This document shows, in pieces, positions 10,005 through 51,771 of a DNA stretch of 64,000 nucleotides. Each line of letters opens with the position of its first letter. The stretch's first letter is position 1. Source of the DNA: Paraburkholderia ginsengiterrae (lineage in GTDB: Bacteria; Pseudomonadota; Gammaproteobacteria; Burkholderiales; Burkholderiaceae). The translations under genes were made by a program, and so were the position numbers. A model generated the notes under the pieces. That model searched no databases, was not told the DNA's origin, and saw only the letters and a list, made by a program, of their open reading frames with translations. The stretch covers positions 37,137-101,136 of the forward strand of contig NZ_LXKA01000232.1 of the NCBI RefSeq assembly GCF_001645125.1, in the 5' to 3' direction.

Positions 10005-11171
10005 TTATTTCTCAGCGTCCGTGGAGGCCATCCGAAACACCGAGATACCCTCCATCGGGTCCAGGGTCTCGCGCCACGGTGCCCGCGCGAGCAGGCGGGT
10101 CGTGTCTTCATAGCCCGCGGCCCAGCGTTTCTCAATCCCCGCTGACGAAAAATCGATGTCCCGGTTCAGGTCGTCGTTATCGAATGCGGGCGCGTCGAGT
10201 TCCAGTACCTGCATGGTCGTGCCACAGCCCCAGCCGAGGAGCGCCTGCAGTTCCGGCGTCTTGCGCTGATCTTCCGGGATGTGCTGGCTGAGTTCGCGAA
10301 TCACGTGACGCAACCGGTGAATCTGCTTCTGCCGGTCGAGATGGCTTTCCGCGCGGCTCGAATACTGAATGTCGCGCTGGCGGCTCATGACCTGCAGGAT
10401 GGACTCGGGTTCGGGTCCGTTCGACGGCCACAACTGCACCGAAAAAATCACCGAGCTGCGGCGTGGGCGGTCGTCGAGCACGGCTTCCAGCGGCGTGTTC
10501 GAGTAGATGCCGCCGTCCCAGTACGATTCGCCTTCAAGACGCACCGAAGGAAAGCCAGGTGGAAACGCCGCGGATGCCATCACGTGCTCGACGTCCATGG
10601 GCGCATCGCGATTGGTGAAATAGCGCATTCGTCCGCTGCGGACATTGACGGTGCCCACCGTCAGCCGCGTTGCCTTGCTGTTCAGATAATCGAAATCGAC
10701 CAATGAAGACAAGGTTTCGCGCAACGGGTCGGTCGAATAGAACGCCGCGTTCTCCGAACCGACTCGCGTCTGAATCCCTGCCCATGACGACGGCCGGGGC
10801 GTGAAGAAAGACGGCACGCCTTGCGTGACGATCGCGAGGTCGCGCGACCAGTTGGCGAGCCCTGGCCACCACCCGCTCAATGCGTCAAAGCCATGCCGCG
10901 CCACGCCGTTCCAGAACTGCTTCAATCGCTCGATGCGGTGCTCGGGCAGATTGCCGGCTATGATCGCGCCGTTGATCGCGCCGATCGACGTGCCGATCAC
11001 CCAGTCGGGTTTGACCTTGCCGTCGTGCATGGCCTGATAGACGCCCGCCTGGTACGCGCCTAGGGCGCCGCCGCCCTGAAAGACAAGCACGACCTGTCCG
11101 GGAATGTCCGGCGCGCCCGCCGTTCGAGCGGACGTGTCAGCGTCGCGTTTGCCTTGCGTCTTGTTGCCCAT
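10005..11171 (-). CDS. patatin-like phospholipase (with DUF3734-type C-terminus)
   Basis: The 388-residue protein carries the complete patatin catalytic set. The oxyanion-hole glycine loop is FQGGGALGAYQAGVY, the nucleophile elbow is GTSIGAINGA (GxSxG) and the catalytic Asp lies in YWDGGIYSNTPLEAVLDD. The C-terminal part (MSRQRDIQYSSRAESHLDRQ and onward) fits the DUF3734 extension of bacterial patatins. Substrates are probably phospholipids or acyl-CoA esters; some homologues act in polyhydroxyalkanoate metabolism. The start at 11171 follows GGGAGA; an earlier in-frame ATG at 11243 lacks support. No signal peptide is seen, so it should be cytoplasmic or peripheral. Confidence 0.9.
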   Translation of the reverse strand: MGNKTQGKRDADTSARTAGAPDIPGQVVLVFQGGGALGAYQAGVYQAMHDGKVKPDWVIGTSIGAINGAIIAGNLPEHRIERLKQFWNGVARHGFDALSGWWPGLANWSRDLAIVTQGVPSFFTPRPSSWAGIQTRVGSENAAFYSTDPLRETLSSLVDFDYLNSKATRLTVGTVNVRSGRMRYFTNRDAPMDVEHVMASAAFPPGFPSVRLEGESYWDGGIYSNTPLEAVLDDRPRRSSVIFSVQLWPSNGPEPESILQVMSRQRDIQYSSRAESHLDRQKQIHRLRHVIRELSQHIPEDQRKTPELQALLGWGCGTTMQVLELDAPAFDNDDLNRDIDFSSAGIEKRWAAGYEDTTRLLARAPWRETLDPMEGISVFRMASTDAEK

Positions 11172-11312
11172 TGCAGGTCTCCCGGCTGAATGCCGCAGTG
11201 CCGGTGATTTTGCCACGTGTCGGGCCGGACCGGCGCGAGTCAAAGCGTGGACGAGCGCGCTTCTGCTGAATTGCGGCGAGACGGCCGCTGTGCCTGGCGG
11301 ACTTCATCCCGC

Positions 11313-12503
11313 TCAGACCATGGAGACAACGCTGTTGAGCAGCGTCTTCACGAGTACCGACTGGCGCGTCGCGCCGGTCTTAGCGAACACGCCGCGCAAG
11401 TGCGCGCGCGCGGTATTTTTGGTCATGCCGAGCGCGTCGGCGGCTTCGTCGAGCGTGAGGCCATCGACCAGCAGCAGCGCGACCTCGGTTTCGGTCGGCG
11501 TCAGGCGAAACAGTTTGCGCAGCATGGCGCGTGAGTTTTTCGGCGAGCCTGCGGGATCGCGAATAAAGACGGCGACGGCCGGCCGTCGCCGCTTGTCCTC
11601 GGCGCAATAGTTCAGCGGAATGGGACGGATCAGCACACTGAGCGGCATGTCGCCCGCCGGCCGCGACAAGGTGGTCGCCTCGACGCATGACGTAGCGGCG
11701 ATCAGGTGGTTGTTGATGCCCGACTGGATCGCCTTCTGGAATTTGCGGTTTTCCAGCGGACAGTGCGCGTGCAAGGCGTCCTGGCTGACATAGATGCCGT
11801 CGCGCTTCGCGAACAGGCGATCGGCCGCGCCATTGCTCTTCATGATCTTGCCGTGTTCGTCGAGGATCACGGAGCCCACCAGCATGCGATCGATCGTGCC
11901 CGCGTACAGCGTGCGCTCGGATTCGAGCACATCCAGTATGGAGTGCAGATCAACGGCGCGTTTCAGATGCGGCAGAACAATGGTGATCAATGCCTTGTCG
12001 GCCTCGTCATAGTCGCGGCCGCGATGGGCCCGGCTGACAAAGAACGCGCACTCCACGCCGTCGTCGGTATGGATGTTGGCCGCGAGGATGTAGCGCAGAT
12101 CGAGCGGCTTCAGGTATTGCAGATAGAAGTCGTGCTCACGCCAGGCGGCTTCGCCGAACAGTTCGTCCGCCGTGAGCACCTGACCCGCCGGGAGGCGGGT
12201 GAACGGACAGATCGCGTAGTAGTGTTCGCTGTACGAAGGCTCGCCCGGCAATAGCGTCCCGTACGAGGACGCATTGACGATCAGGCCGGGCCGCTCGCTT
12301 GCCGGATTGCGCAGCACCAGCGTGACAAAACTGGCGTCGAGCCGCTGCCGGATCCATTCCAGCAGGCTCGACCATGGCGTCGTCTCTGTCGGCCCCTGAT
12401 AGACGAGGCCGAGCAGCGCGCTCAGTTGCCGGGGGGCGAGCGCGGCGGCGTCGAAGCAATCGGAAGCGGTATTGCTGCAATCAGGCTGATGCTGCATCGA
12501 CAT
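11313..12503 (-). CDS. LuxR-type helix-turn-helix transcriptional regulator
   Basis: The 396-residue regulator has a C-terminal LuxR/FixJ-type DNA-binding domain: FRLTPTETEVALLLVDGLTL, then DEAADALGMTKNTARAHLRG and VFAKTGATRQSVLVK. The N-terminal 300 residues look like a GAF/PAS-type sensor and are not an acyl-homoserine-lactone domain. It is encoded beside the sulfate-activation genes on the same strand, but a strong terminator-like hairpin separates it from cysNC. I infer that it may read the repeated dyad found upstream of cysD and the sulfotransferase operon, whose centre near -43 is typical for LuxR-type activators. Direct proof is absent. Confidence 0.88.
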   Translation of the reverse strand: MSMQHQPDCSNTASDCFDAAALAPRQLSALLGLVYQGPTETTPWSSLLEWIRQRLDASFVTLVLRNPASERPGLIVNASSYGTLLPGEPSYSEHYYAICPFTRLPAGQVLTADELFGEAAWREHDFYLQYLKPLDLRYILAANIHTDDGVECAFFVSRAHRGRDYDEADKALITIVLPHLKRAVDLHSILDVLESERTLYAGTIDRMLVGSVILDEHGKIMKSNGAADRLFAKRDGIYVSQDALHAHCPLENRKFQKAIQSGINNHLIAATSCVEATTLSRPAGDMPLSVLIRPIPLNYCAEDKRRRPAVAVFIRDPAGSPKNSRAMLRKLFRLTPTETEVALLLVDGLTLDEAADALGMTKNTARAHLRGVFAKTGATRQSVLVKTLLNSVVSMV

Positions 12504-12625: not shown

Positions 12626-14530
12626 CTAATCCGGCCGACCGCCGGCCAGCAGATGCGCGACGATGCGCCCGGCGGCCTGTTCCGGTGTGTCGGCCGTGGT
12701 GTCGATACGGATCTCCGGGTGTTGCGGCGGCTCATACGGCGAGTCGATGCCGGTGAAATTCCTCAGTTCGCCGCGCCGCGCTTTCTTGTACAGCCCCTTG
12801 GGGTCGCGCTGTTCGGCGACGTCGATGGGCGTGTCGACGAATATCTCGACGAACATGTCTGGGCCGGCCAGCGCGCGCGCCATGTTCCGTTCGGCGCGGA
12901 AGGGCGAGATAAAGGACACCAGCGTGATCAGACCGGCGTCGGCCATCAGACGCGCCACCTCGGCCACCCGACGGATATTCTCGACCCGGTCGGCCTCGGA
13001 GAAACCGAGGTCCTTGTTCAAACCGTGGCGCACGTTGTCGCCGTCGAGCAAGTAGGTGTGCTTGCCGAGCGCGTGCAGCTTCTTCTCGACCAGGTTGGCG
13101 ATGGTCGACTTGCCGGCGCCCGACAAGCCGGTGAACCACACAATGCGCGGCGTCTGATTCTTGAGCGCCGCATGGGCTTTGCAATCGACGTCGACGGCCT
13201 GCCAGTGCACGTTCTGCGAGCGCCGCAACGCGAAATGCAGCATGCCCGCGCCGACCGTATTGTTGGTCATCCGGTCGATGACGATAAAGCCGCCCGTATC
13301 GCGATTCTCCGTGTAGGGATCGAAGGCGATCGGCTGGTCGAGGCTGAGATTGCACACGCCGATCTCGTTGAGCTCGAGTGTGCGGGCCGCCATATGGTCG
13401 AGCGTGTTGACGTTGACCCGGTATTTCGGTTGCGCGCTCGTCGCGCCGACCAGCCGTGTGCCGATCTTCAGCAGATACGGACGGCCCGGCAGCATCGGTT
13501 CCTCGCTCATCCAGACGAGTGTCGCTTCAAACTGGTCGGCGACCGCCGGCGGCGCGTCGGCGCGCGCGATCACGTCGCCGCGGCTGATGTCGATTTCGTC
13601 TGCGAGGGTGAGCGTGACCGACTGGCCGCACGCTGCCGTATCGCATTCGCCCGCCGCGGTGATGATGGCCGTGATGCGGCTTTCCTTGCCGGACGGCAGC
13701 ACGCGGATGCGCTCGCCGCGGCGGATGTCGCCGGAGACGATGTTGCCCGCATAGCCGCGAAAGTTCAGGTTCGGCCGGTTGACCCACTGAACCGGCAGAC
13801 GGAATGGGGCGCTGCGTTGCGCGTCGTCTTCGATCGGCACGCTCTCCAGATACGTCATCAACGCGGGCCCGCGATACCACGGTGTGTTGGCGCTGGGTTC
13901 CGTGACGTTGTCGCCGCGCAGCGCGGACATGGCGATGCAGGTGATGTGCGCGAGGCCGATCTGGGCGGCGAACTCCCGATACTCCGCCTCGATCCTGTCG
14001 AACACCTCCTGCGCGTAGCCGACCATATCCAGCTTGTTGATCGCCACCACCACGCGCCGGATGCCGATCAGCGACACCAGGTAGCTATGACGGCGCGTCT
14101 GCGTCAGCACGCCCTTGCGTGCATCGATCAGGATGATCGCGACGTCGGCGGTGGAGGCGCCGGTCACCATATTGCGCGTGTACTGCTCGTGCCCCGGCGT
14201 ATCGGCGACGATGAACTTGCGCTTATCCGTCGAGAAGAAGCGGTAGGCGACGTCGATGGTGATGCCCTGTTCGCGCTCGGCGGCGAGGCCATCGACGAGC
14301 AGCGCGAAGTCGAGCTCGCCGCCTTGCGTGCCGGCTCTCTTCGAATCCGCTTCGAGCTGGCTCAACTGGTCTTCGAACAGCATCTTCGACTCGTACAACA
14401 GCCGGCCGATCAGCGTGCTCTTGCCGTCGTCGACGCTGCCGCAGGTGATGAAACGCAGCAGTCCTTTGGTTTGATGCACCGACAGATATTGCTCGATGTC
14501 GTCGGCAATCAGCGTGGAGACGTGTGCCAT
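12626..14530 (-). CDS. cysNC: bifunctional sulfate adenylyltransferase subunit 1 / adenylylsulfate kinase
   Basis: The 634-residue fusion makes PAPS in two steps. The N-terminal GTPase (CysN) has the P-loop [18 protein letters not shown], the switch motif [12 protein letters not shown] and NKLDMV; it drives APS formation by CysD. The C-terminal APS kinase (CysC) starts near residue 455 with its own P-loop [17 protein letters not shown] and [18 protein letters not shown]. This CysN-CysC fusion has the NodQ architecture, which suits dedicated PAPS supply for sulfotransferases. The start overlaps the cysD stop by one base (TGATG), so translation is coupled. Confidence 0.96.
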
Positions 14531-15426
14531 CAGAAGTAGCCCTCCTGTTTTTTCTTTTCCATCGAACCGGCCGAATCGCTGTCGATCAGCCGTCCTTGAC
14601 GTTCCGAGGTTTTCGCCAGCAGCATTTCCTGAATGATGCCGGTCAGCGTATCGGCTTCGCTCTCGATCGCGCCGGTGAGCGGATAGCAGCCCAGCGTGCG
14701 AAAGCGCACTTTCTTCATCTGCGGCACCTCATTTTTTCGCAGCGGCATGCGTTCGTCGTCGACCATGATGAGCGTGCCGTCACGTTCCACGACCGGGCGC
14801 TCCCTTGCGAAATAGAGCGGCACGATCGGAATCTGATTCAGGTAGATGTATTGCCAGATGTCCAGCTCGGTCCAGTTCGAAATCGGAAACACGCGGATGC
14901 TTTCGCCCTTGCGTTTGCGCGCGTTATACAGGCGCCAGAGTTCGGGGCGCTGCATCTTCGGGTCCCAGCGGTGCTGTTCGGAACGGATCGAAAAAATGCG
15001 TTCCTTGGCGCGCGATTTTTCTTCGTCGCGGCGTGCGCCGCCGAATGCCGCGTCGAATCCGTAGTGGTCGAGCGCCTGTTTCAGCCCCTGCGTTTTCCAG
15101 ATGTCCGTATGAACCGCGGAACCGTGGGTGAACGGATTGACGTTCTTTTCGATGCCTTCGGGATTGACGTGTACCCGCAAATCAAGGCCGAGCCGTTCGA
15201 CGGTCTGGTCGCGGAACGCGATCATCTCGCGGAATTTCCACGTCGTATCGACGTGCAGCAGCGTAAAAGGCGGCTTGGCCGGATAAAAGGCCTTGAGCGC
15301 GAGGTGCAGCATGACCGAACTGTCTTTGCCGATCGAGTACAGCATGACCGGGTTTTCGCATTCGGCCACCACCTCGCGCATGATGTGGATGCTCTCCGCC
15401 TCCAGCCGCTCCAAGTGAGTCAACAT
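14530..15426 (-). CDS. cysD: sulfate adenylyltransferase subunit 2
   Basis: The 298-residue PP-loop ATP pyrophosphatase carries the catalytic P-loop [20 protein letters not shown] and the family segments [14 protein letters not shown] and [17 protein letters not shown]. With CysN it adenylates sulfate to APS. It is the first gene of a two-gene operon with cysNC, and AAGGAG precedes the start. Upstream lies a dyad operator also found at the sulfotransferase operon. The pair corresponds to NodP/NodQ in organisation. No cysH, cysI or cysG gene is nearby, so this copy is probably not the assimilatory one. Confidence 0.96.
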
Positions 15427-15489: not shown

Positions 15490-15534
15490 ACAGTACCGGT
15501 CGGGCGGGTGTCGGTTCTTCGTCCGACCGGACTA
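15490..15534 (-). promoter_or_regulatory. cysD promoter with shared dyad operator
   Basis: Read on the minus strand, TAGTCCGGTCGGACGAAGA (15534 down to 15516) is identical over 19 bases to an element in front of the DUF1214-sulfotransferase operon. Its core is the dyad GTCC-N4-GGAC. Exactly 20 bases later lies the -10-like hexamer TACTGT (15495-15490), which puts the dyad centre near -43. A related half, CCGGTCGG, recurs at the downstream edge. The position fits a class II activator site that overlaps the -35 region. Confidence 0.75.
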
Positions 15535-15629
15535 AAAAAGACAAGGGGACGGCGTGATCTGCGATGGGTGAGCACGTTTTACGGGGGCGGGAGGCGATCA
15601 GGCAACGGCCGGTTCCGCGGCAAGCGCGG

Positions 15630-15848
15630 AAAGGTCAGGCCATCGTGGGCCACCGCCGCGTAAGCAGACTTGGTCATGGCGACACCGGCCGCGACGTTGC
15701 GGTGATACTTGACGAGCGCAATTGTGAGCCGGCCGGCGGGCGTCCTGTCTTCGTTGGCGCCGGACTTGATGAAGCGGTTGCGCAGCGCGAGTGGGTCGAT
15801 TTTTACGGGAGAGAACTGCGAGGCCGCCTCGGGATAGGCGTGTTGCAT
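15630..15848 (-). pseudogene. N-terminal remnant of an NADH:flavin oxidoreductase (old yellow enzyme family)
   Basis: On the minus strand this stretch reads QFSPVKIDPLALRNRFIKSG, then ANEDRTPAGRLTIALVKYHR and VAAGVAMTKSAYAAVAHDG. These are the first 60 or so residues of the old yellow enzyme TIM barrel, including the FMN-binding LRNRFIKSG strand. Homology stops after LTFPRL, and the remaining roughly 300 residues of the usual enzyme are absent. A glycine-loss variant (AAGVAM in place of the usual AAGGVAM) also suggests decay. It lies in a gene-poor stretch upstream of cysD next to the broken vgrG, so this is probably an old insertion or deletion site. Confidence 0.7.
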
Positions 15849-16080
15849 GCGTGGCTGCACTCGCCGTCGCCATCGGCTGCCTTCGCGCTTCTTCCCATGA
15901 CAACGCGTCGCTGGTTGAGCAGCTACGAACCGTTGCACGCGAAGCCGCGTCGAACCTCCAGTTCGAACTGGGCCAGTTACGGGGACTGTGCGATGTGTCG
16001 ATATCCGATCTGAAATTGCGTCAACCCCTCCAAGCCATCGACCTGTGTGCGGTCGGGCCGTCCATATTCACGAGGCATTA

Positions 16081-16234
16081 ACCCTGACTTTGGTATTCCA
16101 ATAAAACTTCGTAATGCTAAGTTAACGTGCTTGACAAAAATTGACCGAATTTTCGGTTCAATCCTATTTGATTCGACCCCAAAGTTCGCTACCGTTCTGC
16201 TGGGCTATTCAGTGAACGTCTAGCAGGAGGGGGC
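16081..16234 (+). promoter_or_regulatory. AT-rich leader with inverted repeat upstream of truncated vgrG
   Basis: This stretch is clearly more AT-rich than its surroundings. It contains TTGACA (16131), then a nearly perfect inverted repeat, TTGACCGAA-TT-TTCGGTTCAA (16141-16161), whose inner ACCGAA/TTCGGT arms match exactly. No convincing -10 is spaced correctly from either TTGAC box. A strong AGGAGG ribosome site at 16225 precedes the TTG start. The composition suggests that the vgrG leader came with the secretion gene. Confidence 0.45.
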
Positions 16235-16885
16235 TTGAGTCAGAAAAAAGATCTTACGCACCGGCACTACCATCTCGACATGCCACAGGCCAGCAGTGCC
16301 GAGCTGGCCGACATTTTTGCATTCGAGGGAGAACGGGCCATCGGGGAACCCGGTCGGTATGCGATCCGGTTCACGCATCCGCAACCGGACCTGTCACGCA
16401 CCGACTACCTGAACAAGCCTGCTGCGTTTGTGATCCAGCCCCCGTTCAATCCGCTCACGACGCTCAAGCCCGAAGCGGAACGGCGTGTGCAGGGGGTCAT
16501 CACAAGCTTCAGCCAGCGCGGCAGCAGTCGCGACGAAACGACCTATGAGGTGGTGCTGGAGTCGCGCCTGGCGCTATTGCGCAATACGCCCAAGTGCCGG
16601 TTCTTCCTTGACAAGAGTTTCCCGGAAATCATCGAGCAGATCCTGCGCGAACACGGTTTCGACAGGATCCACGGCAGCTTCGAGTTCAACCTGTACCGCA
16701 CCTATCGCAAGCGCGGTTTCGTGATGCAATGGGGCGAAGACGACCTGACCTTCATCACGCGACTGTGCCGCCGCTCCGGTATCTGGTTTGTTTGCGAGGA
16801 GGGCACCAGCGCGACGAGATCAGGAGAGAAGCATGGCGCTACTTGTCGCGGACCCTCTGGCGTATCTACCGCTGGCTGCTGCTGA
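16235..16885 (+). pseudogene. truncated type VI secretion VgrG (N-terminal fragment)
   Basis: The frame starts with TTG after AGGAGG and encodes about 190 residues of a VgrG/Rhs spike protein. Visible blocks include SRTDYLNKPAAFVIQPPFNP, VQGVITSFSQRGSSRDETTY and LVLESRLALLRNT-like DUF2345-preceding strands, then FVMQWGEDDLTFITRLCRRS and GIWFVCEEG. Full VgrG proteins run to 600-900 residues and include a gp5-like beta-helix, which is missing here. After EEG the frame continues for 25 unrelated residues and stops. Just past the break another frame encodes a membrane protein, so an internal deletion has probably joined vgrG to its downstream neighbour. Confidence 0.85.
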
Positions 16886-17250
16886 GCATGTTGTCTCCGG
16901 CGATCATGATCGCAATGGGGATGACTTTCGACGGGGAGCCCGGCAGTAAGGCTGTCGTCTGGATAGGGGGCGTCTTGCTGGCGTTCGTACCTTGCTGGGG
17001 CATCTGGATTTTCGTTCCAATCTGGCGTGACCATGTTGCCCAGCGACTGTATTTCGAGGACATCGCGGACGGCACCTGCCCGGATCGGGGCTGGCAGATT
17101 TCACGCGCGAACGGGTTGAAGTGGTACAGGAAACAGGGTTCGCCCTTGTGGATCAGTTCGAGGCGGGAACGCCCGTGGGCGCACCCTGCCGATGCGATTG
17201 CGCGCATGGAAGGCCGGGATCCACCGCCCCGGCAACGGACGAAGTGGTAG
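16843..17250 (+). CDS. small two-TM membrane protein, remnant of a vgrG-linked gene
   Basis: This frame encodes about 135 residues. It begins with LSRTLWRIYRWLLLSMLSPA and a first hydrophobic helix, then a loop GMTFDGEPGSKAVVW, a second helix IGGVLLAFVPCWGIWIFVPI and a soluble tail with YFEDIADGTCPDRGWQIS. The open frame extends upstream over the vgrG break (to 16729) without a clear start. TTG 16843 and ATG 16888 are both possible. A role as a secretion-linked immunity or accessory membrane protein is only inference from position. The protein is not recognised. Confidence 0.45.
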   Translation: MSRTLWRIYRWLLLSMLSPAIMIAMGMTFDGEPGSKAVVWIGGVLLAFVPCWGIWIFVPIWRDHVAQRLYFEDIADGTCPDRGWQISRANGLKWYRKQGSPLWISSRRERPWAHPADAIARMEGRDPPPRQRTKW

Positions 17251-17261
17251 GAGTGGCAGGC

Positions 17262-17747
17262 CTAACCCGCCTGCATCGCCCCTGCTGCGTGAAAAAGCGA
17301 CTCAGCCCGCACCTTCAAACTGCGCGCAACCGCATCGAAGCCCTGGCGCACCCATTCCCCATGCGTTGCCATCACGACAGGCGCCGTCGGCCCCAGGAAG
17401 AGGTCGGTCGAGTAATACGTGCAACTCGCCTCACCGGTGGCCTCGATCACCTGATCGCGGCGCGCCGCATCTGGATTGCCTGCTGAAGGCGTCATTTCCC
17501 AAGACAACAGCGCCGGGCGGTCGAACGCGGCCAGATGCTCGACCACATGAATCAGTTCGCCCGGCACCGCGGGATTCGGCAGGTAAAGGTTCACCGGGTC
17601 GCCCAGCTTGAGCGTGGATTCGACCTTGACCGTATAGGGATTCCATTGCGGATAGGCGGCAAGATCGGTCAACACGTCCCATACGAGCGACGCGGGAGCG
17701 TTGATCTCGACCTTGATCGAGGTAACCAGGTATTGCTCTGCGGACAT
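17262..17747 (-). CDS. SRPBCC-family (polyketide cyclase/START-like) protein
   Basis: The 161-residue protein has the SRPBCC opening IKVEINAPASLVWDVLTDLA, then YPQWNPYTVKVESTLKLGDP and the strand LIHVVEHLAAFDRPALLSWE. The fold forms a deep hydrophobic ligand pocket for lipids or polycyclic compounds. Start 17747 follows GGAGG. It is divergent from the DUF1214-sulfotransferase operon, and its promoter carries a copy of the same operator. It may therefore bind or process the hydrophobic acceptor of the pathway. No catalytic residue is evident. Confidence 0.85.
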   Translation of the reverse strand: MSAEQYLVTSIKVEINAPASLVWDVLTDLAAYPQWNPYTVKVESTLKLGDPVNLYLPNPAVPGELIHVVEHLAAFDRPALLSWEMTPSAGNPDAARRDQVIEATGEASCTYYSTDLFLGPTAPVVMATHGEWVRQGFDAVARSLKVRAESLFHAAGAMQAG

Positions 17748-17793
17748 GCAAGCCTCCATGGCAAGTGATGGTCGCGCGTCATAGCGCGCGGCC

Positions 17794-17838
17794 ATCATGT
17801 CAGGGACGCACTGTCACGTTCCTCGTCCGGATGGACTA
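17794..17838 (-). promoter_or_regulatory. SRPBCC-gene promoter with shared dyad operator
   Basis: On the minus strand TAGTCCATCCGGACGAGGA (17838 down to 17820) matches the cysD operator at 15 of 19 positions and keeps the GTCC-N4-GGAC dyad. Exactly 20 bases later comes CATGAT (17799-17794), a 4/6 match to the -10 consensus. The geometry equals that of the other two promoters. Confidence 0.7.
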
Positions 17839-17857
17839 AAAACGGGTAAACCCAGGC

Positions 17858-17902
17858 TAGTCCGGTCGGACGAAGATTGCCGGTTCGCACCACTTGTATC
17901 GT
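17858..17902 (+). promoter_or_regulatory. DUF1214-sulfotransferase operon promoter with shared dyad operator
   Basis: TAGTCCGGTCGGACGAAGA (17858-17876) is identical to the cysD element. After exactly 20 bases comes TATCGT (17897-17902), a 4/6 match to a -10 box; the start codon follows at 17933. The dyad centre falls near -43, as at cysD. Together with the divergent copy at 17820-17838, the two dyad centres are 35 bases apart. Confidence 0.75.
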
Positions 17903-17932: not shown

Positions 17933-19042
17933 ATGGCAGCACAGTCCAGCGAAGCGCAACTCCTTTCCGGTCAGACGTGGGCCGATTTCTGCGACACGCT
18001 AAAGCGCAGCGGGCAGCAGATTCTCCGCGCGGAAGCGCCGGGTGATGCGCTGACCCGCACCGAGGGTTTCCGTTATCTGAGCCGGCTGTTGCGGATCGCG
18101 CTTGAAATGCACGTGGAATTCGCGGACGCGGATTTTCCCGGATTCTTTTCGCCGTCGCATGAAACCGCGAAGATCGGCGCGGATAACCCGGACAATCTCT
18201 ATCAGTACGCACGCCTGAACGGCGCGCATGACTATCGGGTATCCGGGCGGCGGGGCACGGTGGCGTATCTGAGTTTCGGCACGCAGAAGGGCGGCTACGA
18301 AACCGACGGCAAGATGATCCAGACCGGCTTCCTGGATGCGAAACATCTCGCGGTCGATGCACACGGCAACTTCGAAATCGTGCTAAGCCAGCAAGCGCAC
18401 GAAGGCAACTGGGTGCGCATGGAGCCTGGCACCAACGCGCTAGTGGTGCGGCAAACCTTTCTCGATCGCAAATCGGAGCAACCCGCTGAACTGAAGATCA
18501 CGCGTCTTGGCTCCACCGACAAACCGGCTCCGCTCGACCCCGTGACGCTGCACGACGGCCTGATGCGCGCGGCCGGCTTTGTCGAAAACACCGCGCGTCT
18601 TTTCGCGGATTGGGCGGGCGGCTATCAACGTCATGCCAACCAGCTGCCACCGGCGGACCAGGCGGTGTGCCAGGCAGTGGGCGGCGACCCCAACATTTTC
18701 TACTACCACTCGTACTGGGCGCTCGGTGACGACGAAGCGCTGGTGATCGACGTGGCTTCGGTTCCCGAGTGCGACTTCTGGAATCTGCAAATCAATAACT
18801 ACTGGATGGAATCGCTCGATTACCGGCACCACACCGTCTGCATCAACAAGCACTCCGCGCGCTATGACGCCAATGGCGGCGTCTCGCTGATGCTCAGTGC
18901 GCGCGATCCTGGCAAGCCCAATTGGCTCGATACGGCGGGGCATCGCAACGGCACGATGTGTCTGCGCTGGGTGGGCGCGAAGCAGCCTGTCCATCCCGTT
19001 GTGCGGGTCGTCAAATTCAACACGCTAGAGGAGGCTGCATGA
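17933..19042 (+). CDS. DUF1214-domain protein
   Basis: The 369-residue protein belongs to the DUF1214 family, with the C-terminal segment SVPECDFWNLQINNYWMESL, then YRHHTVCINKHSARYDANGG and RDPGKPNWLDTAGHRNGTMC. The N-terminal half is all-alpha. No enzyme activity is firmly assigned to the family, which often neighbours lipid or sterol genes. The start at 17933 follows GGAGG. Its last four bases (ATGA) overlap the sulfotransferase start, so the two are translationally coupled and probably act together. It is the first gene of a five-gene operon. Confidence 0.86.
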   Translation: MAAQSSEAQLLSGQTWADFCDTLKRSGQQILRAEAPGDALTRTEGFRYLSRLLRIALEMHVEFADADFPGFFSPSHETAKIGADNPDNLYQYARLNGAHDYRVSGRRGTVAYLSFGTQKGGYETDGKMIQTGFLDAKHLAVDAHGNFEIVLSQQAHEGNWVRMEPGTNALVVRQTFLDRKSEQPAELKITRLGSTDKPAPLDPVTLHDGLMRAAGFVENTARLFADWAGGYQRHANQLPPADQAVCQAVGGDPNIFYYHSYWALGDDEALVIDVASVPECDFWNLQINNYWMESLDYRHHTVCINKHSARYDANGGVSLMLSARDPGKPNWLDTAGHRNGTMCLRWVGAKQPVHPVVRVVKFNTLEEAA

Positions 19043-20268
19043 CAACCGGCGCTGCCATTGAACACAAGCTAGAGGTGGATCATCTGCTGGCGCTCGCGAT
19101 CGAACGCTCTGGAGGCCTGACCGATTTCGGAAGCGGCAATTACCGCGAGGCCCTGGACGTGCTGTTCGATTCGTTGAACCGCGAAGCCAACCTGTCGGCG
19201 CAAGGCGAAGCGCTGCTGCACGACAAGGTGCTGGCGCAACTGGTCAACCGGCTGGTGATCGAAGACTATTGCCGGCGCTACCCCGAGATTCTCGCGCAGT
19301 CGATCGACGATCCGCTTGTGATTGTCGGCTTGCCGCGCACCGGCACTACGCTGCTGCAACGCGTTCTGGCGGTCGACCCGCGCTTCCATTCGGCGGCGTG
19401 GTGGGAGACCCGCTACCCGGCGCCACGGCACGACGAAACACTCGAGAATCCGGCGTCGCGTATCGGCCTGGCGTGCGCGGAGGTCGATCTGATGATCCGC
19501 TATATTCCGCAGATTCTCGCGATACACCCGCTCGACGCGATGCAGCCCGACGAAGAGTTCATGCTGATGGAGCACTCGTTCATGTGCGCGATGGACTCGT
19601 ACGCGAACGTGCCCAGCTATACCGCGTGGCTGGCGCAGCAGGATCAGACATCCGTCTACGAATACCTGAAGAAGATGCTGCAATTCCTGCAATGGCAAAA
19701 GCGGCAGCGTGGCGTGCCGGCCGCGTCGCGCTGGATCCTGAAGACGCCGCAGCATCTGCACACGCTGGAACTGCTGTTCAAGGTTTTCCCGGGCGCGCAG
19801 GTGGTGCTGACTCACCGCGATCCGGCCATGACCATTCCGTCGATGGCCAGCATGGCGCACACGCTGTGGAAAATGTACGCCGATAACCCGGATGCCAGAG
19901 TTGTCGGTAATCAGTGGTCCTCGCAAATGCGGCGTGCGGTTCATCACGCCATGGAGGTGCGCGCCACGTTGCCTGACGAGCGCTTTCTCGACATCCGTTT
20001 CGAGGATACGGTGACCGATCCATTCGGCGTGATCGAGTCGGTGTACCGCTTTGCCGGCCTGCCGTTGACCAACGAGGTACGCGAAGCGATGGCCGCATGG
20101 CTCGCCGGGAACAGCCGGGACAAACGTGCCGCACACGGCTACACGCTGGCCGAGTTCGGACTCAGCGTGGAGCAACTCAGGCAGGACTTCGCGCCATACC
20201 GTCAGCGCCACATTCTGCCCGCGGCGGACGCAGCGGACCCGGCTGACGTGGCACACGTGGCGCATTAG
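19039..20268 (+). CDS. PAPS-dependent sulfotransferase (Sulfotransfer_3 family)
   Basis: The 409-residue enzyme has the 5'-phosphosulfate loop IVGLPRTGTTLLQRVLAVDP near residue 95 and a 3'-phosphate-binding region around FKVFPGAQVVLTHRDPAMTI. FLDIRFEDTVTDPFGVIESV is also typical for this family. It would transfer sulfate from PAPS to a hydroxyl or amine of an unknown small molecule. The start overlaps the DUF1214 stop. The cysD-cysNC operon about 3.6 kb upstream makes its donor and shares its promoter element, a strong functional hint. The acceptor cannot be deduced. Confidence 0.9.
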   Translation: MTTGAAIEHKLEVDHLLALAIERSGGLTDFGSGNYREALDVLFDSLNREANLSAQGEALLHDKVLAQLVNRLVIEDYCRRYPEILAQSIDDPLVIVGLPRTGTTLLQRVLAVDPRFHSAAWWETRYPAPRHDETLENPASRIGLACAEVDLMIRYIPQILAIHPLDAMQPDEEFMLMEHSFMCAMDSYANVPSYTAWLAQQDQTSVYEYLKKMLQFLQWQKRQRGVPAASRWILKTPQHLHTLELLFKVFPGAQVVLTHRDPAMTIPSMASMAHTLWKMYADNPDARVVGNQWSSQMRRAVHHAMEVRATLPDERFLDIRFEDTVTDPFGVIESVYRFAGLPLTNEVREAMAAWLAGNSRDKRAAHGYTLAEFGLSVEQLRQDFAPYRQRHILPAADAADPADVAHVAH

Positions 20269-20332: not shown

Positions 20333-20773
20333 ATGCCGCGCGATCTGCAGTACCTGCTCGATAAAACCGACATCTCCGATCTGCTGATCGACTACGGCAC
20401 CGCGATTGATTCGCGCGATTTCGCCGCGCTGGATCGCATCTTCACCGCGGATGCCGTGATCGACTACCGCGCCACCGGCGGCCCGCGCTGCACGCTGGAA
20501 GAGGCCCGGCGGTTTCTGGCCGAGGCCTTGCCCCAGTTCCCGCGCAGCCAGCACATGATGGGCAACATCAGCATCAGGCTGCAAGGCGCGACGGCGACCG
20601 CCCGCACGCTGTGCCACAACCCGATGGTGATGCGCAAACCGGACGGCGGGGAGGAGGTGGTGTACTTCGGCATCTGGTATGCGGACGAACTGCTGCGGAC
20701 TGGCGACGGCTGGCGCATCCGCAGCCGGTCGCTCGAATTCTGCTATTCGGACAACTATCAAAGGAGTCTTTGA
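20333..20773 (+). CDS. SnoaL-like / NTF2-fold protein (SnoaL_4 type)
   Basis: The 146-residue protein has the SnoaL_4 pattern: KTDISDLLIDYGTAIDSRDF, AALDRIFTADAVIDYRATGG, SQHMMGNISIRLQG and the closing GWRIRSRSLEFCYSDNY. Relatives include scytalone-dehydratase-like and ring-hydroxylating-dioxygenase-beta-like proteins. Asp and His residues in such pockets (for example in SQHMMGN) can be catalytic, but this is not shown. GAGGAAAG precedes the start. The stop is one base before the SDR start, so it is cotranscribed with the sulfotransferase and the reductase. Confidence 0.86.
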   Translation: MPRDLQYLLDKTDISDLLIDYGTAIDSRDFAALDRIFTADAVIDYRATGGPRCTLEEARRFLAEALPQFPRSQHMMGNISIRLQGATATARTLCHNPMVMRKPDGGEEVVYFGIWYADELLRTGDGWRIRSRSLEFCYSDNYQRSL

Positions 20774-20774
20774 C

Positions 20775-21566
20775 ATGCTCATGCGAAACAAGGTGGTCGT
20801 GGTGTCGGGTATCGGTCCGGGCCTCGGTGTCAAGCTGGCGATCGAAGCGGCGCGCGAGGGCGCGCACGCCGTGGTGATCGCCGCACGCACCGCGGCGAAA
20901 CTCGACGAGGCGGAACAGCGGATCCGCGAACTGGAGGTGGACTGCCAGGTGCTGAAGGTGACGGCCGACATTACCGACAAGCAGCAGTGCAAGCATCTGG
21001 CCGAGCGCGCAATCGGCCAATTCGGCCGGATCGATGCGCTGGTGAACAGCGCTTTCGTGCACGGCAAATTTCCCGAACCGATCGAAGACGCCGATCTGGA
21101 CGGCTGGCGCGAGGTGTTCGACACGAATGTGTTCGGCACCATGAACCTGACGCAGGAAATCGTGCCGCACATGAAAAAACGCGGCAGCGGCGCGATCGTT
21201 ATGATCAACACGCAGGCCGCGCGCAAACCGTTTCCGGGCGAAGCCGGCTACGCGGCGTCCAAAGGCGCGCTGGCCGTAGCGGTCAAATATCTGGCGAGAG
21301 AACTCGGGCCGCACGGGATCCGGGCCAACAGCATCCACATGGGGTGGATGTGGGGCGCGCCGGTGCAGGGCTATGTCCGGCAGGCCGCGGCTCAGTACAA
21401 TATCCCCGAGGAGCAGATCATCGAGCCCATTGCAGCGAACATCGCGCTCGGCCACATTCCGACCGATGACGACTGCGCGAGGGCTGCGTTATTTCTGGTG
21501 TCCGATTACGCGAAAGTCATTACCGGTGCGACACTCGACGCCAACGGCGGCGATTTCATGGCATGA
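20775..21566 (+). CDS. short-chain dehydrogenase/reductase
   Basis: The 263-residue SDR has a modified nucleotide loop SGIGPGLGVKLAIEAAREGA in place of the classical TGxxxGxG. The active-site block is GYAASKGALAVAVKYLAREL (YxxxK), with the strand MINTQAAR giving the Ser/Thr position: the usual catalytic Ser appears as Thr or shifted. ALVNSAFVHGKF replaces the usual NNAG motif. Such variants occur in SDRs of steroid and lipid metabolism. AAGGAG lies eight bases before the ATG at 20775. Fourth gene of the operon; it probably oxidises or reduces the sulfation substrate. Confidence 0.9.
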   Translation: MLMRNKVVVVSGIGPGLGVKLAIEAAREGAHAVVIAARTAAKLDEAEQRIRELEVDCQVLKVTADITDKQQCKHLAERAIGQFGRIDALVNSAFVHGKFPEPIEDADLDGWREVFDTNVFGTMNLTQEIVPHMKKRGSGAIVMINTQAARKPFPGEAGYAASKGALAVAVKYLARELGPHGIRANSIHMGWMWGAPVQGYVRQAAAQYNIPEEQIIEPIAANIALGHIPTDDDCARAALFLVSDYAKVITGATLDANGGDFMA

Positions 21567-21591: not shown

Positions 21592-22695
21592 GTGACCGAG
21601 AACAGTATGGCAGGCAAGCATCAACACACCGGCGAGCACACCGGCGAGTACACCGGCGAGTACACCCGCGCCGCCGGCGTGGACAACCCGGGCGGCACGC
21701 GCAACGCCGGCAATGCCGGCATTGCAACGGGGGCGGCCCACGTCTTCGCCTTCAACGGTGACGCGGACGGACTCTGCGCGCTACAACAATTGCGCCTCGC
21801 GGAGGCGCCGCAGGCGGCGCTCGTCACCGGCGTCAAGCGCGACATTCAGTTGTTGCGGCGAATCGAGGCCGGTTCCGGCGACCGGGTCACCGTGCTCGAC
21901 GTCTCGCACGAACAGAATTGCGTGGATGTGCAGCGTCTGTTGGAGGCCGGTGTGCAGGTCCGCTATTTCGACCATCATTTCGCCGGCGATCTGTGCGCGC
22001 ATCCTTGCTTCGACGCGCATATCAACACCGCGCCCGACGTGTGCACGAGTTCGCTCGTCAACGGCTACCTCGGCGGACGCTATGTGCGCTGGGCCATCGT
22101 GGCGGCGTTCGGCGACGAGCTGCCGCAGCTCGGCGAGGCGCTGGCGCGCGCGCACGGACTCGCGCCGCGGACCATCGCATCGTTCGCCGAGCTTGGGCGC
22201 CATCTGAACTACAACGCGTACGGCGAATGCGTCGACGACCTGCACTTCGACCCGGCCGCGCTGGCCGAGGCGATGCTGCCGTTCGCCGACCCGGTCGATT
22301 TCATGCAGGACACGAACGTGCTGGCGGCGCTGTGCGAAGGCTATCGCGAGGATATGGGCAAGGCGCGGGCGCTGTGTCCCGAGCGGGCGTGCAACGGCGC
22401 CACGCTGGTCACGCTGCCGCACGAGGCATGGGCGCGCCGCGCCACGGGCGTGCTTGCCAACGAACTGATGCAGAGCCGGCCGGACCACGCATTGGCGGTG
22501 CTGACGCCAAAATCCGGCGGCGGTTTTGTCGTGAGCGTGCGGGTGCCAACGGGCAGGCCGCTCGGCGCCGACGATTTTTGCCGCACCTTCGAGACCGGCG
22601 GCGGCAGAAAGCGGGCAGGGGGCATCAATCATCTGCCGGAGACGGAGGTCGAGCGGTTCGTCGCGCGTTTCGAAACGGCATTTGGCGTGGCGTGA
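21592..22695 (+). CDS. DHH-superfamily phosphoesterase-like protein
   Basis: The roughly 367-residue protein has the DHH signatures VFAFNGDADGLCALQQLRLA and VRYFDHHFAGDLCAH; the C-terminal GGGRKRAGGINHLP resembles the DHHA1 glycine motif. DHH enzymes use Mn to cleave phosphodiesters in nucleotides or oligonucleotides. GTG 21592 has GGAAG upstream; ATG 21607 is the alternative. The N-terminus carries a threefold THxGE-type repeat and a Gly/Ala-rich linker not seen in the core family. It follows the SDR gene by 25 bases and may belong to the sulfotransferase operon. A link to PAP (3',5'-bisphosphate) removal is only a thought. Confidence 0.8.
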   Translation: MTENSMAGKHQHTGEHTGEYTGEYTRAAGVDNPGGTRNAGNAGIATGAAHVFAFNGDADGLCALQQLRLAEAPQAALVTGVKRDIQLLRRIEAGSGDRVTVLDVSHEQNCVDVQRLLEAGVQVRYFDHHFAGDLCAHPCFDAHINTAPDVCTSSLVNGYLGGRYVRWAIVAAFGDELPQLGEALARAHGLAPRTIASFAELGRHLNYNAYGECVDDLHFDPAALAEAMLPFADPVDFMQDTNVLAALCEGYREDMGKARALCPERACNGATLVTLPHEAWARRATGVLANELMQSRPDHALAVLTPKSGGGFVVSVRVPTGRPLGADDFCRTFETGGGRKRAGGINHLPETEVERFVARFETAFGVA

Positions 22696-22900
22696 CAGGC
22701 GTGACGGGCGTATGCGGCCATTGCGCGACCTGACCCCGTAACGACGCGGGCGGCTGGCACCATCGAATGGTCGTGACTGGCACTACGCGCAGGCGCCCAA
22801 AGCTGCGACGATTCGGCCCCTCTCCTGAAGATGTCGTCGTGCGCATACGGTAGCAATCGATTTGACCTTCGATTCACCGTTTTCTGCGTACCCGCGACTC

Positions 22901-23650
22901 ATGAACTTCGCCGACTTTGCCGATCTGACCGGCAATCCCGCCATCCTGGGATGTCTTGCCCTGATTACGATCGTCGCCGGCATGGCAAAGGGTCTTACCG
23001 GATTTGGTGGCGCGCTCGTCATGGCGCCGTTGTTCGGGCTGCTGATTCCCGCGCCTGAGGCCGGTGTGCTGATCGTGCTGATTCACTTTACGACCTCGCT
23101 GCAAGGCGTGCGAAGCTGGGCGGGCGCGGCGCGCTGGCGCAAGGTGATACCGCTGGCGCTCGTCGCCATGGGCTGCACCGCCGTGACGACGCACTGGATG
23201 GCCAGCGAGAGCGCCGCCGATATTCGCCGGCTTGTGGCGGTCGCGGTCCTCGCTTCCACCGTGATGCATATAAGAGGGTGGCGCTGGCTGCACGATAGCG
23301 GCTGGCGTCCCACCTTCACCGCCGGCGCGATGAGCGGCGCACTGACCGCGCTGGGCGGCATCGGCGGGCCGCCCGCCGTCTACTATCTCAACCGCATTGG
23401 CCAGGGCGCCGCGCTGCGGGCCAATCTGCTCGCGTATTTCGCGGTGCTCTATGTGGGCGTGGTGGCGCTGCTGGTCGGTGAGCATCAGGTTCATGCACCG
23501 CAGCTCTCGTCCACGGCGTTGCTCGTGCCGGTCTTCGCACTCGGCGTCGCCGCCGGCGAGCGGCTGGGCAAGCGCCTGCCGCTGCGCGGGCTGGAGCGCC
23601 TCGTGAGCGGCTTGCTGCTGTGTTCCGGGCTGGTCGCGCTGTTGACGTGA
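22901..23650 (+). CDS. TauE/SafE-type (TSUP) membrane exporter
   Basis: The roughly 249-residue integral membrane protein shows the TSUP repeats LITIVAGMAKGLTGFGGALV and AGAMSGALTALGGIGGPPAV, each with the family GxGG/GGxGGPP motif, and about seven to eight hydrophobic helices. Family members export sulfite, sulfoacetate or other small anions. It lies after the sulfur operon but with a 205-base gap, so it may have its own promoter. The start is uncertain: ATG 22901 and TTG 22862 are in frame and neither has a good ribosome site. Confidence 0.85.
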   Translation: MNFADFADLTGNPAILGCLALITIVAGMAKGLTGFGGALVMAPLFGLLIPAPEAGVLIVLIHFTTSLQGVRSWAGAARWRKVIPLALVAMGCTAVTTHWMASESAADIRRLVAVAVLASTVMHIRGWRWLHDSGWRPTFTAGAMSGALTALGGIGGPPAVYYLNRIGQGAALRANLLAYFAVLYVGVVALLVGEHQVHAPQLSSTALLVPVFALGVAAGERLGKRLPLRGLERLVSGLLLCSGLVALLT

Positions 23651-51018: not shown

Positions 51019-51771
51019 CTAGAACGTTCTGGCGAGTTCCCGCGCCGCTTCCTGCAGGCGCGGCACGAATTCGAGCGCGCGCGACAGCGGCGCGCGCGAA
51101 ACCGGCGCATGCACGGCGATCGCCGCGATGCAGGTGTTGTTCGCATCCATGACCGGGGCGGCCACGCAGGCAATGCCGGCGACAAACTCCTCGTTATCGA
51201 TCGCAATGCGCTTGTGCGCGGTGCGGTCGAGTTCGGCTTCGAGCAGTTCGGGGTCGGTAATCGTGTTTGGCGTGAAGCGTTCGAGCTTCAGCATGCGCAC
51301 AAGCGGCGCGCGTTGCTCGCGCGGCAGCATGGCCAGCAGCAGCTTGCCGCTCGCGCTGCAATGCGCGGGCACGTGCGAGCCGGGCTTGAGATCGAGCCGC
51401 AGCGGCCACGGCGCTTCCATCCGGTCGAGATAGAGCACTTCCGTTTCGTGCAGCATGGTGAGATTGCAGGTCTCGCCGACGTCGGCAACGAGGTGCGAGA
51501 GGATGGCGTGCCGCAGTCGGCGCGCGCCGGAATGCATCATGACGCCCAGACCGAGTTGCGCGAGGCGCGGCCCGATCACGTACGCGTTTTTCTGGCCAGG
51601 CTCACGGATCACCAGACCCCCGGCCTCCAGCGACGCCAGCATGCGGTGCAGCGAGGCCTTCGGCAGATCAACGTCCTGCACGATGTCGGCGAGCGACACC
51701 GGACCTTCGGCGTTGACCAGGTGCTCGAGCAGCGCGAACGCGCGCAGGGTGGGAGTATCCGCTTTAGTCAT
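51019..51771 (-). CDS. IclR-family regulator
   Basis: The 250-residue protein has the winged helix LLEHLVNAEGPVSLADIVQD, then VDLPKASLHRMLASLEAGGL. The effector domain contains VGETCNLTMLHETEVLYLDR and VPAHCSASGKLLLAMLPREQ. It is a close paralogue of the two other IclR proteins here. Its stop is 28 bases from the convergent MocR-gene stop, and its upstream region holds TTTCCGGAA-type sequences and a GAAATAGCG motif. It may control xsc, tau or sau genes; the target is not fixed. Confidence 0.87.
   Translation of the reverse strand: MTKADTPTLRAFALLEHLVNAEGPVSLADIVQDVDLPKASLHRMLASLEAGGLVIREPGQKNAYVIGPRLAQLGLGVMMHSGARRLRHAILSHLVADVGETCNLTMLHETEVLYLDRMEAPWPLRLDLKPGSHVPAHCSASGKLLLAMLPREQRAPLVRMLKLERFTPNTITDPELLEAELDRTAHKRIAIDNEEFVAGIACVAAPVMDANNTCIAAIAVHAPVSRAPLSRALEFVPRLQEAARELARTF

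Follow-up and report, generated by a model that had tools for sequence, protein, structure and literature searches.

A conserved operator joins genes for making and using activated sulfate in Paraburkholderia ginsengiterrae and is probably read by a neighbouring GAF-PAS-LuxR regulator

As far as the available text of four papers tells, TeiR/TesR of Comamonas testosteroni is a LuxR-type activator of steroid degradation (PMC6678751, PMC8700777, PMC13101464, PMC6895838). The accessible portion of PMC12239570 compares a LuxR-type gene in a progesterone cluster with TesR, and that of PMC6895838 cites a report according to which tesR-like genes are confined to C. testosteroni. In the published literature that we searched, which took in few subscription papers, no operator for TeiR/TesR-type LuxR regulators was found. 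Here, we describe a 19-nucleotide (nt) element that recurs in three promoters of a 64,000-nt stretch of Paraburkholderia ginsengiterrae DNA (contig NZ_LXKA01000232.1, positions 37,137 to 101,136; hereafter, the window) and offers a candidate operator for LuxR-type regulators at steroid genes. The element precedes genes for the synthesis of 3′-phosphoadenosine 5′-phosphosulfate (PAPS) and a sulfotransferase operon, and a LuxR-type gene with GAF-like and PAS-like sensor parts lies beside them. As described for TeiR/TesR in the text available, the product of this gene would be a LuxR-type positive regulator encoded among its presumed targets, and its paralogs sit at steroid-degradation-like genes, TesR being compared by description only; unlike TeiR/TesR, it sits with PAPS and sulfotransferase genes. 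We consider it quite likely that these genes form a sulfation regulon read through the 19-mers by the neighbouring GAF-PAS-LuxR protein, and that the system is a branch of a steroid-type LuxR family.

Two copies of the element are identical: TAGTCCGGTCGGACGAAGA stands at 15516..15534 on the minus strand, upstream of cysD-cysNC-luxR, and at 17858..17876 on the plus strand, upstream of the DUF1214-sulfotransferase operon. The third copy, TAGTCCATCCGGACGAGGA (17820..17838, minus strand, upstream of the SRPBCC gene), differs from them at four positions (15/19 identity). Each copy is oriented toward its own gene and is followed, after a spacer of exactly 20 nt, by a −10-like hexamer, namely TACTGT for cysD (15490..15495, minus strand), the weak CATGAT for SRPBCC (17794..17799, minus strand), and TATCGT for DUF1214 (17897..17902, plus strand). 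The original prediction, made from the letters of the window, had claimed two identical 19-mers with a 15/19 third copy, a common orientation, and the exact 20-base gap; this observation is confirmed at the exact positions for all three copies, and the interpretation built on it is supported overall. Apart from this pair, 19-base sequences recur exactly in the window only at 51461/52370 and in a self-complementary stretch close to 11570. When up to three mismatches are allowed, the operator pattern has five matches at three places in the window, vs a mean of 1.65 in shuffled windows, and three of 100 shuffles reach five matches.

In the 8,533,041-base source genome, the pattern TAGTCCN4GGACGARGA has three exact matches, all at this locus, and its reversed control has none. 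With up to two mismatches, the pattern has 27 matches vs 87 for the control, and the looser 16-mer TMGTCCN4GGACKA occurs at six places vs 12. Relaxed forms are not enriched by number, and it is their location that counts: three of the six 16-mer places are the window operators, one lies between a KshA_C Rieske gene and an MMPL gene, and one is just upstream of a LuxR paralog. The sixth copy, TAGTCCAACCGGACGA (L044 3681; G000:C334:3679), adjoins Tad-like pilus genes, and no explanation for it was found.

Among 145 genomes of the genus, the exact operator pattern is present in eight, with at least two copies in seven. These are the same seven of the 145 that have both a LuxR ortholog (at least 74 per cent identity) and a sulfotransferase ortholog (at least 76 per cent identity); the next sulfotransferase is 51 per cent identical (G079), and the remaining ones, among the matches listed, reach at most 34 per cent. 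The seven genomes share a block of luxR, cysD-cysNC, SRPBCC, and DUF1214-sulfotransferase-SnoaL-SDR-DHH genes (SDR, short-chain dehydrogenase/reductase) in varying order, the cluster of G062 being split across contig ends with its cysDNC genes outside the stretches compared. In the seven, sites precede DUF1214 and SRPBCC, and an exact cysD site occurs in the window and in G019. In three relatives (G027, G087, and G124), the site before cysD has a dyad altered at one position and keeps TACTGT at the 20-nt distance; in these genomes cysD closely follows SRPBCC, with only ~150 bp between the genes. In the window, a VgrG-like (Phage_GPD) fragment and other open reading frames (16235-16885) separate SRPBCC from cysD. 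Because the three relatives keep the cysD copy, this extra DNA did not create the cysD site. Additionally, we searched for the exact 18-mer in 399 genomes drawn across the order. It is present in 14, and more than one copy occurs only in the window genome and in G428, which carries the sulfation cluster and has a LuxR gene 3 kb away. The 7-of-7 result within the genus and the order sample with G428 are the independent tests of the linkage to LuxR. The search of related genomes that the original prediction had proposed thus finds the element retained before cysDNC, DUF1214-sulfotransferase, and SRPBCC.

Named genomes were also scanned with a LuxR alignment, which yielded at least 80 loci. Among the matches listed, nearly all loci with a LuxR protein of 59-88 per cent identity (L097-L144 and L157) carry the gene block, cut by contig ends or rearranged in some, in Paraburkholderia, Burkholderia, Cupriavidus, Ralstonia, Pandoraea, and Pseudomonas (matches other than LuxR being mapped from 38 per cent identity up). 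Upstream regions were compared in 53 loci of these six genera, comprising the listed cross-genus loci, G027, G085, G124, and the window; L119 has no usable start, leaving 52 testable loci, and upstream stretches shorter than 120 nt are skipped in the dyad and hexamer counts. In 47 of the 52 listed loci, an exact GTCC-N4-GGAC dyad is found in the 150 nt that precede DUF1214, cysD, or SRPBCC, and the remaining five, Pandoraea included, have a dyad with one mismatch before one of these core genes. The exact dyad occurs in 89 of 143 core upstream regions vs 11 of 693 upstream regions of other called genes, and 128 of the 143 match within one mismatch. Ranked among all 256 N4 dyads, GTCC comes first with 89 and the runner-up has 9. 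In those of the loci L097-L144 that have two divergent exact dyads, the distance between the two differs by genus, at 26-27 nt in Pseudomonas, 35 in window-type Paraburkholderia, 44-45 in Cupriavidus, and 48-60 in Burkholderia, so each dyad seems to serve its own promoter.

These comparisons bear on whether the element is a chance repeat or a recently duplicated segment, as the 19/19 identity of two copies might suggest. The flanks of the copies differ from one another, three relatives retain the cysD copy with one change at the same spacing, and five genera from two orders have kept the exact dyad despite variation in the N4 core (the Pandoraea form has one mismatch). This conservation refutes chance or recent duplication, to which we assign a practically negligible probability, and it bears out the earlier judgement that identity by chance was very unlikely.

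Promoter geometry was compared in 94 distinct sequences downstream of the gene-proximal dyad among the loci listed. The alignment behind this comparison omits L038, L040, and L035, which duplicates the contig stretch of L099, and a start is accepted only if the alignment begins within residue 25 at an identity of at least 45 per cent. A T1A2T6 hexamer begins 25 nt after GGAC in 47 of the 94 promoters and 24 nt after it in 10, whereas each of the other offsets between 8 and 37 has one at most. Broken down by gene, 24 of 26 distinct cysD promoters and 23 of 42 distinct DUF1214 promoters have the hexamer 25 nt on, with another 10 of the latter at 24 nt; the DUF1214 count is lowered by cases in which the gene's own dyad is degenerate and the dyad of the divergent gene is taken as the nearest exact one. 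TATCGT occurs at the window offset in 13 of the 42 DUF1214 promoters. For cysD and DUF1214 promoters, the predicted dyad centre is near −43.5, the position of a LuxR-type activator. In class II activation by the LuxR family, a lux-box-like dyad lies near −42.5. The window system resembles this arrangement in its predicted dyad centre and in having no recognisable −35 box at the cysD and DUF1214 promoters; it differs in its dyad and in its regulator, which has a predicted GAF-PAS sensor and not an acyl-homoserine-lactone domain. Given its constant distance to the hexamer, the element might instead serve an alternative sigma factor as a −35 region. The conserved palindrome ends 25 nt before the hexamer, however, which is too distant for a −35 element, and its four-base core is variable. 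We reject this explanation on account of the excessive spacing and regard it as very improbable.

The candidate reader of the operator is encoded at 11313..12503 (minus strand) and is predicted to have GAF-like, PAS-like, and GerE helix-turn-helix (HTH) parts. Its C-terminal GerE/LuxR HTH is recognised by Pfam (PF00196, residues 334-385, E-value 3.1e-5, 23.9 bits vs a cut-off of 23.5). An AlphaFold2 model (predicted local distance difference test [pLDDT] 77, predicted template modelling score 0.50) has a GAF-like part at ~59-159, a PAS-like part at ~210-315, and the HTH helices at 322-394; its Foldseek neighbours, all weak or of low template modelling score (TM), are phytochrome GAF/PAS proteins, VqmA, and El222. 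A LuxR protein of acyl-homoserine-lactone quorum sensing was considered and rejected, as no autoinducer-binding Pfam match was found at an E-value of 0.001 and the model is GAF/PAS-like. Of the loci of 23 LuxR relatives at 32-53 per cent identity (49-53 per cent for 19 of them), 20 have dyads, 37 in all, where base counts predict ~1.5; two or more of the 37 fall within the LuxR coding sequence itself, and the loci share ancestry. A tree of 44 rows places the 22 LuxR proteins linked to sulfotransferases on a single branch (support 100/100), outside which the LuxR of the diverged G079 cluster falls.

The operator may be real and have a different reader, with luxR a mere neighbour, and in some relatives luxR is indeed not beside cysNC. 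Against this, nine gene families are found in at least 17 of 55 loci (loci nearly all chosen by LuxR and compared with a crude gene caller that undercounts genes), and no regulator other than LuxR is among them; its presence matches that of multiple sites in 7/7 cases among 145 genomes, and LuxR paralogs have the same dyad alongside. We judge another reader unlikely. The original prediction had pointed to the LuxR-type gene beside cysNC, and this assignment is now stronger because paralogous LuxR genes are flanked by the same dyad. We infer that the GAF-PAS-LuxR regulator binds the 19-mers and activates the three promoters from a dyad near −43.5. Since luxR lies downstream of cysNC in the window, it is probably co-transcribed with cysNC and autoactivating. 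Next to luxR, at 10005-11243, is a gene for a patatin-like phospholipase (Patatin and DUF3734), outside the conserved block. In the Pseudomonas clusters L130, L133, and L135-L137, a second LuxR gene (40-42 per cent) directly follows the first and adjoins AMP-ligase, SDR, and FAD-oxidoreductase genes.

Several observations weigh against a regulon read by LuxR. The 53-locus set was chosen almost wholly by the LuxR protein, which makes the LuxR linkage there a product of construction, and within one mismatch the dyad also matches 70 of 693 non-core upstream regions. The eighth genus genome with an exact site, G119, has a single site and no cluster. In the order sample, 12 of the 14 genomes have a single exact site with no cluster genes within the fetched ~1.5 kb per side (two of these stretches are shorter), the lone exception being a 27 per cent partial cysNC match in L215; single exact sites are background. 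SRPBCC promoters have the T1A2T6 hexamer in 0 of 26 distinct sequences and mostly have CANGAT (7, at the offset of the window hexamer) or AGNATC (13) instead; the spacing behind the predicted −43 geometry is conserved across genera at cysD and DUF1214 promoters and, as T1A2T6, not at those of SRPBCC. No dyad adjoins the LuxR genes of L070 (47 per cent), L073 (36 per cent), and L072 (32 per cent), nor those of the ~40 per cent relatives in G237 and G389, the latter having one dyad ~9 kb away; extension of the operator to such distant relatives was rejected. A 17-kb stretch of Novosphingobium pNL2, in which a LuxR-like gene (28 per cent) adjoins a steroid Delta-isomerase gene, has no dyad. Finally, the HTH is highly conserved across the LuxR family, and equally so in some relatives that lack the dyad, and its conservation does not prove the site.

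The genes of the block suggest what the regulon would do. On the minus strand are cysNC, for the large subunit of ATP sulfurylase fused to adenosine 5′-phosphosulfate (APS) kinase (12626..14530; NF004035, 1078 bits, over the cut-off), cysD, for the small subunit (14530..15426; NF009214, 571 bits, over the cut-off), and the SRPBCC gene, which is polyketide cyclase/dehydrase-like (Polyketide_cyc2; 17262..17750; PF10604, E-value 1.1e-10). The plus-strand operon starts with the DUF1214-like gene (17933..19042; PF06742, 34.6 bits, cut-off 25), a partial match in which no single stretch passes; the gene is also absent from the hits of this profile in a six-frame search of the genome. It continues with a predicted PAPS-dependent sulfotransferase (Sulfotransfer_3; 19039..20268), which matches PF13469 at 148.6 bits (cut-off 27; E-value 4.1e-43), a SnoaL_4-like gene (20333..20773; PF13577, E-value 2.9e-27), and an SDR gene (20775..21566; NF005909, 353 bits, over the cut-off). 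Last is a gene for a DHH-family phosphoesterase (21607..22695, with an inferred start codon), the proposed phosphatase of 3′-phosphoadenosine 5′-phosphate (PAP). Its Pfam DHH/DHHA1 match is weak (E-value 0.016, below the cut-offs), and its model (21700-22695, pLDDT 90) has the DHH/DHHA1 fold. The best match in the PDB is the PAP phosphatase 8a8k (TM 0.70/0.73, Foldseek E-value 1.2e-12), which it resembles in fold and in having the motifs DHH and GGGRKRA[AG]GI, and from which it differs in being only 12 per cent identical, its function being predicted. PAP phosphatases of the DHH family are treated in PMC8268124 and PMC10322725, and the first of these papers states that PAP is able to inhibit sulfotransferase.

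In the proposed scheme, CysDN and CysC would make PAPS, the sulfotransferase would move its sulfate onto an acceptor that the DUF1214-like, SRPBCC, SnoaL, and SDR partners modify or hold, and the DHH phosphatase would clear the product PAP. No full-length match other than the window cysNC occurs in the genome, which elsewhere has a CysN of its own and two APS-kinase matches that stand alone; the CysD-CysNC set therefore looks dedicated. Since the modelled DHH protein resembles a PAP phosphatase, the regulon seems to cover the full round of PAPS synthesis, use, and recycling. The small regulon around activated sulfate that had been claimed is supported by conservation, whereas the SnoaL, SDR, and PAP-phosphatase-like DHH genes had been missed, as had the sharing of the dyad with LuxR regulators at steroid-degradation genes. 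An RNA element was rejected as an explanation, with no Rfam family in the window at gathering score. A TauE/SafE family (sulfite-exporter-like) gene lies just 3′ of the operon (22862-23650); it has no match in the stretches of 11 relatives and was left out of the regulon. At two other places in the same genome (G000:C339:238790-240168 and G000:C24:62641-63477), sulfotransferase-like and APS-kinase matches lie side by side, the sulfotransferase-like match in C24 being below the cut-off.

More speculatively, a steroid would be both substrate and inducer. Regulator paralogs are found among steroid-degradation-like genes, as is a diverged copy of the operon, and for this reason the most likely acceptor is a steroid or another polycyclic alcohol related to steroids. 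Specifically, the paralog locus L082 of the window genome has luciferase-like and Fer2-reductase genes together with HsaA-like and 3-oxosteroid-dehydrogenase-like ones, the last two scoring under the curated cut-offs, and six of the mapped LuxR-paralog loci contain a member of the HsaA-like family; the steroid-like genes found in the window genome lie on contigs other than that of the window. In G079, the operon copy (DUF1214 53 per cent, sulfotransferase 51 per cent, SRPBCC 55 per cent, SDR 57 per cent) forms a single gene run of SDR, HsaD/E/G/F-like, DUF1214, sulfotransferase, and SRPBCC genes behind TAGTCCAAAAGGACGATG, with a LuxR protein of 41-43 per cent identity. Of 29 dyads followed 24-25 nt on by T1A2T6, 14 belong to Cupriavidus sulfotransferase-cluster promoters and one to the G079 operon; the other 14 are outside sulfotransferase operons, and one of them precedes a KshA_C Rieske gene. 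LuxR paralogs at steroid-like genes suggest a family wider than C. testosteroni, again with TesR compared only as described. We tentatively propose that this GAF-PAS-LuxR family reads TAGTCC-N4-GGACGA at steroid genes and that the sulfation cycle of one clade is a real step of steroid metabolism, which might, for example, turn a hydroxyl into a leaving group or shield a toxic intermediate.

Alternatively, the sulfated product may be a metabolite or signal that has no connection with steroids, and the regulator's steroid kinship would be a matter of history. This is plausible, if short of probable, and the evidence is divided. The HsaA-like gene is present in 7/8 genus cluster genomes vs 21/137 others (Fisher p 3.6e-5, a value that overstates the association since genomes of one genus are not independent), and the HsaD/E/G-like families of G079 adjoin the Ralstonia and Cupriavidus clusters L116, L118, L121, and L124. 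On the other side, G087 has the cluster and, at the threshold used, lacks an HsaA-like gene; luxR is followed by a major facilitator superfamily transporter gene and a lactonase-like gene in 11 cluster loci (Burkholderia where checked); and none of the HsaD-, HsaA-, and KstD-like proteins reaches its NCBIfam cut-off. Annotation of a Cupriavidus plasmid locus came back empty.

If a steroid is the acceptor, sulfotransferase-oxidoreductase genes of the mycobacterial cholesterol locus could be the counterpart of the window sulfation cycle. The closest solved chains to the window sulfotransferase are 2zq5 and 2z6v, which we take to be mycobacterial Stf1 and Stf9, Stf1 presumably being Rv3529c. These proteins come from a different phylum with different regulators, and we know of no CysDNC operon tied to mycobacterial sulfotransferases by a LuxR operator. 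The available part of PMC6429209 lists Rv3529c-Rv3531c as cholesterol-catabolic genes, with Rv3529c given as a conserved hypothetical, together with an oxidoreductase and beside steroid-ring genes. Literature searches on LuxR with sulfotransferase, bacterial steroid sulfation, Rv3529c, and DUF1214 returned nothing relevant beyond this paper, and a profile search of 14 control genomes found DUF1214 and Sulfotransfer_3 matches in two genomes each, none a mycobacterium. The proposed cycle offers a concrete role for sulfotransferase genes whose presence beside bacterial steroid-degradation genes is unexplained, and for several genera the operator, its reader, and the target genes are now predicted.

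At the HsaA-like operon, the hexamer of the dyad faces a divergent glyoxalase-fold gene on the opposite side, which also weighs against the proposed reading. On the HsaA-operon side of L082 (16575-16685), and likewise in L088 and L159, a degenerate copy spotted by eye, TTAATCCAAA(C/T)AGACGATG, lies ~90-105 nt past the dyad and may be the operator of the HsaA-like operon.

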